NCBI RefSeq assembly: GCF_003675875.1
Contig: NZ_RCDI01000002.1
Location: forward strand, 994,786 to 1,058,785
Direction: 5' to 3'
DNA: 64,000 nt
From: Halostella limicola
GTDB lineage: Archaea > Halobacteriota > Halobacteria > Halobacteriales > Natronoarchaeaceae
Under the pieces are notes generated by a model. The model was not told the DNA's origin, did no database searches, and saw only the letters and a program-made list of their open reading frames with translations. The position numbers and the translations under genes were made by a program. This document shows, piece by piece, positions 22,197-24,879 of the stretch; within the stretch, counting starts at the first letter, position 1, and each line of letters begins with the position of its first letter.

Positions 22197-22448
22197 ATGG
22201 CAGACGAACAAGAGATCCGACAGCAGATGATCGACGCGTTCGAAGGCGCAGACTACCCCATCTCCAGCCCGATGGACCTCGTCCCCGCGCTCCCCAACGG
22301 CCCCGGGACGAAGTTCGAGTCCGGCGACTTCTCGATGACGGCGATGGAACTGAACACGAAGCTCCCCGGCGGCGACTTCCCGTACGACTCGCCCGAGGCG
22401 TTCGTCGACGACGTCATCGAGAACCTCAAGGACGAGGACTACATCTAA
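22197..22448 (+). CDS. MTH865-family small protein
   Basis: The 83-residue acidic protein resembles the MTH865-like family of archaeal helical proteins (structure known, function unknown). Recognisable parts are the amphipathic start EIRQQMIDAFEGADYPI, the middle GPGTKFESGDFSMTAMEL and the ending FVDDVIENLKDED. A strong TATA box and GGGGAG immediately before the start suggest good expression. The metallo-hydrolase gene follows after 10 bases, so the two probably share a transcript. Confidence 0.82.
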   Translation: MADEQEIRQQMIDAFEGADYPISSPMDLVPALPNGPGTKFESGDFSMTAMELNTKLPGGDFPYDSPEAFVDDVIENLKDEDYI

Positions 22449-22458
22449 GGCGACCTCG

Positions 22459-23319
22459 ATGGTCGAACCGACCGACGGGCGCACCGACGTGTACACCGTC
22501 GACACCGAACTCCTCGGCTCCCCGGGGCTGATGGCCGCCTACGTCGTCGACGCGGAGCGACCCGCCGTCGTCGACCCCGGCGCGGCCACCGCCACCGGTC
22601 CCGTTCTCGACGCGCTCGACGAACTGGACATCGACCCCGAGAGCGTCGCGTACCTGATCCCGACGCACGTCCACCTCGACCACGCCGGCGCGGCGGGCTC
22701 GCTCGCCGACGCCTGCCCGAACGCGACCGTGCTGGTCCACGAGCGAGGCGTGCCGTACCTGATCGATCCCGAGAAGCTCGACGCCCTGTTCGAGAGCGCG
22801 AAGCGGGCCGTCGGCGAGGTCGCGGCGGCGTACGGCGAACCCGACCCGGTTCCGCCGGAGCGGTGCGAGACGCTGGGGGACGGCGACGTCGTGGACCTCG
22901 GCGACCGCAGCCTCGAAGCGATCGACGCGCCGGGACACGCGCCCCACCAGCACGCGTTGCTCGGCGACGACGGGACGCTGTTCGCGGGCGACGCCGCGGG
23001 CGCGTGGCTGGGCGGGCAACTGTTCCCGACCACGCCCGGCCCCGACTTCGACCTGGAAGACGCGGTCGACACCGCCGAGCGCCTGCGCGACCGCGACCCC
23101 GACGCCGTGCTGTACGGCCACTTCGGCGCCCGCGAGGACGCGATCGACGCCCTGAACGAGTACGCGGCGATCCTCCCGGAGTTCGTCGACGCGGTCGACG
23201 AGCTGCGAGAGGAGCACGGCGACCCCGACGACGTCGTCTCGAACCTGCCGTCGCGGTGGGCGTCAAGCCCGACGATAGCGGGCGACGTGCGCGGCGTCCT
23301 CCGCTACCTGCAGAGCTGA
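22459..23319 (+). CDS. MBL-fold metallo-hydrolase
   Basis: The 286-residue metallo-beta-lactamase-fold protein has the metal motif THVHLDHAG (about residues 69-77). Further ligands are a His in APGHAPHQH (about 158), an Asp in LFAGDAAGAW (about 177) and a late His in LYGHFGARED (about 220). The spacing is that of glyoxalase-II-like hydrolases, which act on thioesters or related bonds. The substrate is unknown. It follows the MTH865-like gene by 10 bases. Confidence 0.88.
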   Translation: MVEPTDGRTDVYTVDTELLGSPGLMAAYVVDAERPAVVDPGAATATGPVLDALDELDIDPESVAYLIPTHVHLDHAGAAGSLADACPNATVLVHERGVPYLIDPEKLDALFESAKRAVGEVAAAYGEPDPVPPERCETLGDGDVVDLGDRSLEAIDAPGHAPHQHALLGDDGTLFAGDAAGAWLGGQLFPTTPGPDFDLEDAVDTAERLRDRDPDAVLYGHFGAREDAIDALNEYAAILPEFVDAVDELREEHGDPDDVVSNLPSRWASSPTIAGDVRGVLRYLQS

Positions 23320-23503
23320 TCCGGGTCCGCGCCCGTGGCCGACGAACCGCCGGACGCCCGTCGAGCCCGGAACCCGCATCGCGCCGAGCGCGCGGCCGGA
23401 CCTGCAGAAGCGATCCTGCAGGGAAGATCGTCGTGAAGTTCCGTTCGATGGTTCGCTTCGGTAATGTAAGCGGAGAGGACCATACCCGCAACGAATAAAT
23501 CAT

Positions 23504-23524
23504 GCGTGAGTGTCTCACTCATGC
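23504..23524. promoter_or_regulatory. 21-base palindrome, probable operator
   Basis: The palindrome has arms GCGTGAGTG and CACTCATGC around TCT, all nine pairs matching if one G-T is allowed. It lies directly after AATAAAT (23494-23500) and covers the position where transcription would start (about 23521), a typical repressor location in archaea. The regulator is not identified. Confidence 0.6.
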
Positions 23525-23608
23525 CACCACAAGTTTTACTTTCCCAACCGTTCACAGGTTGAATTACATCGCACGCCCGGTACTCCGGGCGACACAGGGT
23601 GACTCACG

Positions 23609-23773
23609 ATGACCATCGCACTACCATCACGGACGGCCGCTCCCGCGACGAGCGGCGCGTTCACTCCCGCCGGGTATGCCGACCCGGTCGTCGCCGGCGA
23701 CGGCGAGGCGGGCCGTGATGGGTGCGTCGTCGTGACTCGCCCGCGCGCTCGGTCCGGCACCCTCGCCGCGTAA
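23609..23773 (+). CDS. Possible 54-residue ORF in the regulated unit
   Basis: The frame runs from an ATG at 23609 to TAA at 23771. The protein has an acidic middle (YADPVVAGDGEAGRDG) but a basic end, and its third-position G+C is high but below that of clear genes. It lies downstream of the palindrome and upstream of the stem with T-run at 23866. It may be a small protein, or the transcript may be non-coding. Confidence 0.25.
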   Translation: MTIALPSRTAAPATSGAFTPAGYADPVVAGDGEAGRDGCVVVTRPRARSGTLAA

Positions 23774-23865
23774 GGCGTCGCCGAGGGGCGGACCGTTTCT
23801 CCGGGACTCCACGTCGCCGGGGGAGAGTCCGTCCCCGACGGGTGTCGGGGCCGAGCGCGGTTCTC

Positions 23866-23883
23866 CGACGCATCCGTCGTTTT
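23866..23883 (+). terminator. Possible terminator hairpin with T-run
   Basis: CGACG-CATC-CGTCG is followed directly by TTTT. Archaeal termination depends mainly on T-runs, and such runs are rare in this DNA, so this could end the transcript starting near 23521. Confidence 0.4.
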
Positions 23884-24127
23884 CGGTGGCACCTTACCGG
23901 CGAGACCCGGGCACGCGATGATCGTCGCGGGGACGCCCCGCGACGCAGCCCGCGTCCCGCTGACGCCCCGACCCCGGCGGCGTTCTCCGCGCCGGCGGGG
24001 TGGTACGGCAACGGAGAGAGGCATCGCTACCGATATCGCAGACGACCGATCCGCCCCCGCCGCGGCCCAGACCGCGGCGGACCGTCGCCTCGCGCGACGG
24101 GCGCGTTCGACTCGCGCCGGGGGCCTC

Positions 24128-24436
24128 ATGCAAGCACAACGAACGCCCACGGTCACCGCCACCGCCGAGGTGGAGATCCGGGTGCCCCGAGACGGCGACG
24201 CCCTGGAGCGCGACGCCGAGACCGTCCTCGAACGGCTCGACGCCGTCGACCGCGCGGAGGTCGACGGGCTCACCGGCGTCACGCCCACGCTGAACGACCT
24301 CCAGGTCGGCGCGAACGTCCGGCTGACGCTCCGGCTCGACGGCGCGGGCGACCCCGCGGCGGCGACCCGCGAGGCGCTCGCCGACGGCTTCGGCGTGCGC
24401 GAGGTGTCGGTCGTCGAGGTCCGCGATCCCGCGTGA
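24128..24436 (+). CDS. Unrecognised acidic protein, 102 residues
   Basis: From ATG 24128 the protein has normal haloarchaeal character: acidic, with alternating strands and helices (TVTATAEVEIRVP, ERDAETVLERLD, LQVGANVRLTLRL, VREVSVVEVRD). This pattern suggests a compact alpha/beta fold. The in-frame sequence upstream is Arg-rich and is rejected as coding. No known motif is seen. It is 104 bases upstream of another small unknown gene on the same strand. Confidence 0.6.
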   Translation: MQAQRTPTVTATAEVEIRVPRDGDALERDAETVLERLDAVDRAEVDGLTGVTPTLNDLQVGANVRLTLRLDGAGDPAAATREALADGFGVREVSVVEVRDPA

Positions 24437-24540
24437 CCCGACGACCGCTCCGGCGCCGCCGTCGCGCCCCGACCCGCCGAACGGCAGTGACCGACCGCGC
24501 AGACGCACCGCCTCCCGACAGACAGATCAGACCCAGAACG

Positions 24541-24879
24541 ATGTTACGAGAACTCGCCCACTCGGTCGCCGAAGCCGAGTGGTCCGACAGTGTCGCATCG
24601 GCTTCCGAACGCGCGTCCGCCGCCGCGGCGGACGCGTACTCCCGCTCGCCGCTGGCCGAGCGCCGGCCGCCCCCGGTGCCGGACAGCGTCGTCGCCGCCG
24701 CGCTCGTCGCCGCGCTGTTCGGCGCGGCCGCGGCGTCGGCCGTCGCCGTCGCGCTGGCGGTGTTGCCCGCGAACCCCGCGTTGCAGGCCGTCGTCGTGGC
24801 GCTGGGCGCCGCCAACGTCTTCGTCGGCCTGCCGCTGGTCGCGGTCAAGGCCGCCGAGGTCGTCGCGCAGCGCCTCTAA
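24541..24879 (+). CDS. Small membrane protein of unknown function, 112 residues
   Basis: The protein has a soluble N-terminal half (MLRELAHSVAEAEWSD and an Ala-rich helix) and two membrane segments in the C-terminal half (about residues 50-70 and 78-100). The start at ATG 24541 gives a sensible acidic/amphipathic head, whereas the upstream extension is Arg-rich. It overlaps the convergent enoyl-CoA hydratase gene by 4 bases. It may form a unit with the 102-residue gene before it; no family recognised. Confidence 0.65.
   Translation: MLRELAHSVAEAEWSDSVASASERASAAAADAYSRSPLAERRPPPVPDSVVAAALVAALFGAAAASAVAVALAVLPANPALQAVVVALGAANVFVGLPLVAVKAAEVVAQRL

Follow-up and report, generated by a model that had tools for sequence, protein, structure and literature searches.

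In mitochondria, tRNAs or tRNA mimics (the t-elements of plant mitochondria) act as punctuation, marking the cleavage sites between messages. The MALAT1 mascRNA/MEN-beta element is a eukaryotic tRNA-like processing signal in a longer transcript, located at the 3′ end of a long non-coding RNA. In tmRNA, the tRNA-like domain is built from the 5′ and 3′ ends of the RNA and the resume frame has no start codon. Leaderless mRNAs arise from a promoter placed at the start codon. Haloarchaea have many of these mRNAs, as stated in PMC4574771. RNase P and tRNase Z of Haloferax cleave tRNA-like elements, which have also been used in engineered crRNAs (PMC4326828, PMC4946936). A natural t-element of Haloferax volcanii precedes 5S rRNA (Hoelzle et al., 2008; Hoelzle et al., 2012, both as cited in PMC4326828).

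The window, meaning the whole stretch of 64,000 nucleotides that was analysed, comes from Halostella limicola (W) and was compared with four other Halostella genomes (G001-G004) and with fetched loci (L-numbers); the same locus is also present in Halostella pelagica DL-M4. A first-pass annotation had flagged a small transcription unit here. The unit is real but was misread in its anatomy and limits, which leaves the observation partly confirmed and its interpretation partly supported. The main object is outside the flagged coordinates and is a conserved tRNA-like element that ends the leader. By sequence, the locus consists of a promoter-like block, a kept reading frame and a tRNA-like element, with covariation, conserved spacing and a spread across haloarchaea. 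Its features are the following.

23504-23524, no strand: imperfect palindrome, the operator of the first-pass annotation (8/10 positions symmetric; absent in 4/4 congeners)
23532-23553, + strand: conserved promoter-like block AGTTTTAYTTTCCCAACCGTTC, with TATA-like TTTTACTT at 23534-23541 (alignment, genome search)
23575-23590, + strand: leader hairpin GCCCGG-TACT-CCGGGC (from the sequence; W, G002 and G004, shortened in G001 and G003)
23598-23602, + strand: GGTGA, Shine-Dalgarno-like, ahead of the 54-codon frame (from the sequence; also in the 4 congeners)
23609-23773, + strand: 54-codon leader frame (uORF) ending ...GTLAA-stop (53-55 codons in 5/5 Halostella)
23750-23795, + strand: candidate helix P1, 23750-23756 with 23789-23795, enclosing the uORF stop codon (helix search)
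23774-24052, + strand: structured non-coding leader from the uORF to the tRNA-like element (conserved blocks, indels of many lengths)
24053-24124, + strand: tRNA-like element (pairs, minimum-energy cloverleaf, five-genome consensus fold)
24053-24059 with 24118-24124, + strand: acceptor of the element (7/7 pairs)
24060-24077 and 24082-24100, + strand: two arms between acceptor and T-arm
24101-24117, + strand: T-arm, GCGCG-TTCGACT-CGCGC (5/5 stem pairs)
24128-24436, + strand: gene for a 102-residue protein (MQAQRTPT...), probably ferredoxin-like, function unassigned (conserved family, third-position excess)
24541-24879, + strand: small hydrophobic protein, probable next cistron and probably a two-helix membrane protein (frame; no Pfam match)

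In look and placement, the element resembles a t-element. The Haloferax volcanii 5S t-element is also tRNA-like and haloarchaeal, and lies immediately ahead of a mature 5′ end, t-elements being substrates of tRNase Z and RNase P; here, in contrast, the element stands before a protein start codon and after a leader with a small frame, is spread over 35 genera, and would be cleaved by proposal. The position before an mRNA start codon, the leader frame and the spread would be new relative to known t-elements. Among the papers listed in literature searches, none was seen to describe a tRNA-like element ahead of this gene, with Hoelzle et al. (2012) outside the comparison. Unlike mitochondrial punctuation, the arrangement is archaeal and places a dedicated mimic before one gene family, sometimes with a second after the gene. 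The mascRNA-menRNA model (RF01684) matches the element of one locus, L085, at 31 bits (E 0.019), short of the gathering score of 42.5, and has no match in the window; no homology is claimed. Leader-peptide (uORF) attenuators also have a short frame ahead of a structured leader, and a helix across the stop occurs in some of our loci, but the likeness covers frame and leader and does not extend to a terminator/anti-terminator switch. A tmRNA, which similarly joins a short frame ending ...AA-stop to a tRNA-like domain in one RNA, was rejected: here the frame has its own ATG after GGTGA, the tRNA-like domain is self-contained downstream (24053-24124), and ARAGORN calls no tmRNA in the window.

An acceptor and a T-arm with a TTCRA loop, the structure by which a t-element is recognised, are both present in the window with every position paired (7/7 and 5/5), and the element ends 3 nt ahead of the ATG at 24128. 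Its minimum-energy fold is a cloverleaf of -50.7 kcal/mol, which 3 of 200 shuffles equalled or bettered, and the consensus fold of the five Halostella sequences includes the element, with one compensated acceptor pair. A search of region 22300-24700 against Rfam 15 gave no match up to E 1, and the window element alone gave two weak matches, a tRNA-Sec fragment at 12 bits (E 5.5) and an unrelated one at 6.7 bits. We regard the element region as a candidate new RNA family.

The family of the downstream gene was found in 172 of 391 sampled genomes of the class (48/86 genera). A subset of the matches, 80 regions (60 fetched for genus diversity and a further 20, of which 18 belong to family f7), was combined with the window and the four other Halostella loci into a set of 85, selected via the protein and not the RNA; a first set comprised 64 of these. 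Among the upstream sequences listed from other genera, a tRNA T-arm was seen ahead of the gene's ATG. The T-loop, TTCRANY, lies 21-24 nt ahead of the ATG in 74 of the 85 loci, in 35 of 40 genera and 6 families (52 loci of the first 64), and also in 12/12 loci from a second listing, some of which are the same records as among the 85. At least four of the five T-stem pairs form in 73 of the 74 T-loop loci. The exception is L181, whose gene start is misassigned inside the element, the correct T-arm and ATG being a few bases further; it was retained in all counts. The five T-stem positions are paired in 64, 74, 74, 74 and 73 of the 74 loci, three of them showing at least two Watson-Crick types, and G53-C61 is G-C in 73. 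Taken over the 52 T-loop loci among the first 64, the T-stem has 254 of its 260 cells paired, compared to a mean of 189 and a maximum of 207 in shuffles that, as for the acceptor, treat the loci as unrelated and ignore kinship.

A T-arm with at least 4/5 stem pairs precedes 52 of the 64 genes of the first set, compared to 1 of 766 ATGs in the window, which is 24128 itself. For the remaining ATGs in the loci the figure is 9 of 2074, and in seven of these cases a second T-arm follows the gene, again before an ATG, 360-442 nt past the gene's start (L024, L025, L069, L077, L115, L122 and L123).

Acceptor strands picked by complementarity (49/64 loci) are biased and provide no evidence beyond the window; therefore, the 5′ acceptor strand was set by the D-arm motif in 17 loci. 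With this register 109 of 119 acceptor cells are paired, exceeding all 1000 shuffles (mean 99, maximum 106). L181, one of the 17, pairs at 1/7 positions because of its wrong start. Plain folding of positions -95 to -1 gave T-arm and acceptor together in 15/52 loci. The acceptor ends 2-5 nt ahead of the ATG in the 74 T-loop loci, L181 being counted with its misassigned start. Conservation of the acceptor, T-arm and spacing while the other arms vary fits a processing signal.

In 11 of the 85 loci the T-loop is absent or non-canonical. These are L066-L068, from one genus, with a degenerate loop CTCGGAC in L066; L107 and L116, from one other genus, with an ARAGORN tRNA call nevertheless present at the L107 site; and L074, L079, L081, L082, L112 and L118, all of which, except L112, we judge by eye to be a different family branch. 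A canonical T-loop is missing from all three loci of g19 despite a similar promoter, leader and frame.

The 54-codon frame, noted in the first-pass annotation, is conserved as 53-55 codons in 5/5 Halostella genomes. In the Halostella alignment its gaps are of 3 nt, except for a 1-nt gap column at the stop codon, and gaps 3′ of it have many lengths. Across the 10 Halostella genome pairs the frame shows no third-position excess, and changes are commonest at codon position 2 in 10/10. Per pair, 2-7 changed codons are synonymous and 9-30 non-synonymous, a ratio of 2 to 15 (W and G001 differ by 24 non-synonymous and 2 synonymous codons), whereas the downstream gene shows the excess and its ratio is 1 to 2.4. 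Non-synonymous changes outnumber synonymous ones in 10/10 pairs for the frame and also in 9/10 (one tie) for the gene, and the contrast between the two rests on the third-position excess that the gene has and the frame has not. It seems that the frame is kept and its amino acids mostly are not. Because it has no third-position excess and a higher non-synonymous ratio than the gene, it resembles a translated leader more closely than a conserved small protein; a small protein as the conserved functional product is unsupported for Halostella, given the missing excess.

For other genera, a candidate frame was defined as an ATG-initiated frame of 34-80 codons with an AT-rich 9-mer 38-90 nt upstream. 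This rule gives 69 candidates in 65 of the 85 loci, a count to be read with caution, as chance frames this long are expected to be common in such G+C-rich DNA and the rule yields some false candidates, such as that of L079, which has no element, and the second candidates in L067, L092, L119 and L179. The last residue is Ala in 49 of the 69 and the last two are Ala-Ala in 38; an SD-like sequence precedes 37. As for a uORF attenuator, the frame is kept within Halostella and has candidates in 65/85 loci, yet the third-position excess is missing.

Between the uORF and the tRNA-like element lies a structured RNA of ~280 nt, and the fold of 23560-24131 beats 100 of 100 shuffles (z -6.2). Helix P1 in the window is not significant, with 0.49 of shuffles equal or better. 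Helices of this type reach at most 0.05 of shuffles in 26 of the 69 candidate frames, and no overall probability is given because the loci are related. In L084, GTCCGCGTCC pairs with GGACGCGGAC, and in L090, GTCCGTCCG pairs with CGGACGGAC. A helix placed at the end of the frame suggests that translation of the frame could affect folding of the leader. By eye, a TTCTCCG-like motif recurs 3′ of the leader frame (23861-23867 in the window), and a short motif like AGAGGCATCGCT stands ahead of the tRNA-like element in several families (24017-24028 in the window).

We consider it fairly probable that the element is a haloarchaeal t-element that is cut by RNase P and tRNase Z and turns a leadered transcript into a leaderless mRNA. 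A single transcript would start ~25 nt after the TATA-like box at 23534-23541, and the flagged stretch would be the 5′ part of a long mRNA leader carrying the translated frame 23609-23773, the last codons of which may pair with RNA just past the stop (P1). The structured leader would be followed by the t-element (24053-24124), abutting the ATG at 24128. Its excision would fall to RNase P and tRNase Z, both of which accept such elements in Haloferax; a leader RNA with the small frame would be freed, and the message of the downstream gene would be leaderless, with 2-3 nt ahead of its ATG. A TATA-like sequence at -36 to -19 occurs in 0/74 T-loop loci, so a leaderless 5′ end would need processing. 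An SD-like tetramer precedes the ATG in 29 of the 74 loci with the element, where it can derive from the acceptor strand itself, and in 5 of 6 tested loci among the 11 that lack the T-loop. Since a TATA-like sequence at leaderless distance is missing and a Shine-Dalgarno sequence mostly so, the gene would obtain a usable 5′ end only through RNA processing. That the locus is transcribed and the RNA cleaved, that the gene is translated without a leader, and that translation of the frame exerts any control are inferences from sequence. If this is correct, leaderless messages would have a second origin in processing at a conserved tRNA mimic, the enzymes of tRNA maturation would gain a role in mRNA expression, and these loci would provide a natural, testable set of mRNA t-elements.

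The same acceptor strand could serve translation directly. It has the form GGGAG/GGGGG on its 3′ side and could be a Shine-Dalgarno sequence hidden in a stem and opened with the help of ribosomes on the leader frame, with no cleavage involved. Such a switch would make use of the SD-like tetramer in 29/74 loci, an acceptor stem that abuts the start codon, and a widespread leader frame with a stop-enclosing helix in some loci. We think it unlikely, as 45/74 loci have no such tetramer, the distance from SD to ATG is short, and the kept T-loop TTCRA and G53-C61 pair (G-C in 73/74) are left unexplained.

The protein encoded from 24128 is probably ferredoxin-like, its AlphaFold2 model (pLDDT 85.8) having the order beta-alpha-beta-beta-alpha-beta. 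Neither Pfam, searched with the window protein, nor NCBIfam, searched with the five Halostella proteins, gave a match. Structure searches returned common ferredoxin-like matches only (Foldseek best E 0.012; VIA-align Z up to 7.5), and we therefore claim no function; MTH889/SSo6206-type proteins and EF-1 beta, which are in the fold-match lists, prove nothing in this respect. Short hydrophobic proteins similar to that of 24541-24879 follow the gene in G001, G003 and G004, and none is listed for G002, which makes 4/5 Halostella loci.

In L105 and L108 the next gene carries an archaeal Pus10 THUMP domain, and similar proteins were recognised by eye, outside the domain scan, in L106, L109, L113 and L120. 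Pus10 modifies the T-loop of tRNA. This neighbour is a possible functional link to the tRNA-like element, and it is conceivable that the T-arm, the best-conserved part of the element, is a binding site for the ferredoxin-like protein or for a tRNA modifier such as Pus10, through which the operon would sense tRNA or its modification status. The Pus10 domain in two of these loci and the similar proteins in the other four speak for this, as do the ferredoxin-like folds of RNA-binding proteins among the structure matches (Z under 8, weak). We nonetheless hold it to be distinctly unlikely, because Pus10 is not next to the gene in the Halostella loci and was recognised in family f5 only, and the 102-residue protein has no known domain in Pfam or NCBIfam. 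More elaborately, there could be a lineage-wide haloarchaeal device whose leader RNA, with its own ATG and a usually Ala-ended peptide, carries at its tail a tRNA mimic that can be freed by tRNase Z, CCA-tailed and perhaps charged, so that the downstream operon (with pus10 nearby in some lineages) would report the state of tRNA processing or T-loop modification; this idea is speculative and, in our view, quite doubtful.

Other neighbours vary. An MTH865-like gene (PF07747) lies at 22197-22448 in the window, and the neighbourhood is partly kept, since the same family recurs downstream of the gene in L125 and, by eye, L088. The upstream metallo-beta-lactamase gene (22459-23319 in the window) has no alignment at this place in G004, G001 and G003, and in G001 and G003 other sequence replaces this stretch.

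At the 5′ end, the likely TATA box is 23534-23541, because the conserved block there, AGTTTTAYTTTCCCAACCGTTC, has one match per genome in 5/5 Halostella (0-2 mismatches in a search that allowed up to 3) and a match in 0/4 genomes from two sister genera of the family (up to 3 mismatches). The first-pass annotation had instead taken an AATAAAT further upstream as TATA; this sequence is present, but the conserved box is elsewhere. It had also proposed that a 21-base palindrome covers the start point and acts as an operator. The palindrome exists at 23504-23524, imperfect and symmetric at 8/10 positions, but is absent from 4/4 congeners, and it does not cover the start point, because the conserved promoter-like block 23532-23553 is downstream of it. 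It is not exceptional, as 147 of ~64,000 21-mers in the window score at least 8/10, and its 15-base core occurs once in the window. Being neither conserved in the five-Halostella alignment nor rare, the palindrome was rejected as an operator, and both the operator and the TATA box of the first-pass annotation are probably wrong sites. Its 13-codon frame (23521-23562) can be read in the sequence and overlaps the TATA-like box, but is not kept in the four congeners. The hairpins and the stem with a TTTT run are likewise present: GCCCGG-TACT-CCGGGC recurs in W, G002 and G004 but is shortened in G001 and G003, and the TTTT stem is not conserved as a terminator. The 3′ limit placed near 23883 is wrong, since conservation in the five-Halostella alignment extends to 24127.

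These observations bear on the model that came with that annotation, in which 23520-23890 would be a self-standing unit, a small RNA or a small-protein mRNA, repressed via the palindrome. A conserved unit with a small frame does exist, and the 54-codon frame, its SD and the promoter-like block are conserved in 5/5 genomes, but the model misses the tRNA-like element that joins the unit to the gene at 24128. With a palindrome that is unconserved and upstream of the TATA-like box, no conserved terminator, conservation that runs on to 24127 and a frame devoid of third-position excess, we consider an independent unit very improbable.

The relation of the element to genuine tRNAs differs among loci. 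ARAGORN makes no tRNA call at the element in the window. Of 12 loci picked for their tRNA-like look, 9 receive a tRNA call at the element, and seven anticodon readings are represented: Glu(UUC) in L086, L087 and L115, Ser, Asp, Ala and Arg in L107, L182, L183 and L185, respectively, and an undefined anticodon in L094 and L097. These calls end 0-2 nt ahead of the ATG, on the gene's strand. None of 29 other loci was called at the element site. Of 20 loci scanned with Rfam, L086 and L087 have a match of the tRNA model to the element, at 59 bits; the tRNA-Glu of L115 (1109-1181) has no listed match in the Rfam scans. A decoding tRNA gene was rejected on the missing ARAGORN call in the window and the variation of anticodon readings across loci. 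Because the anticodons vary and tRNA or mascRNA models match in few loci, the element looks like a tRNA mimic, which in some lineages is still near tRNA-Glu and for which the anticodon is no longer important. The least probable reading, and one we find hardly credible, is that of a neutrally decaying relic of a tRNA gene that once preceded the gene and lost decoding, as the differing anticodons and odd anticodon loops of the ARAGORN calls might indicate, because 74/85 loci in 35 genera retain the T-loop, G53-C61 and a spacing of 2-5 nt while the rest changes, the stems covary, and in 7 loci of the first set the gene is followed by another T-arm arranged alike.

A pattern search for the same arrangement at other Halostella genes gave 17 matches in G000, the genome of the window, and 69 in four genomes. 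Thirty-five of these were checked; a full T-stem is present in five, which all belong to this locus or its second element, and 4/5 T-stem pairs in five more. Four further regions, picked by hand, comprise one mimic before a different gene, one sequence like a genuine tRNA gene, and two with 3/5 pairs. The mimic, L193 (G001 C7, minus strand, around position 1009 of the reverse complement), is a minimal tRNA-like element, GCCCCG ... CCGCGG-TTCGACT-CCGCGG ..., before the ATG of a different gene, and the device may thus extend beyond one gene family.
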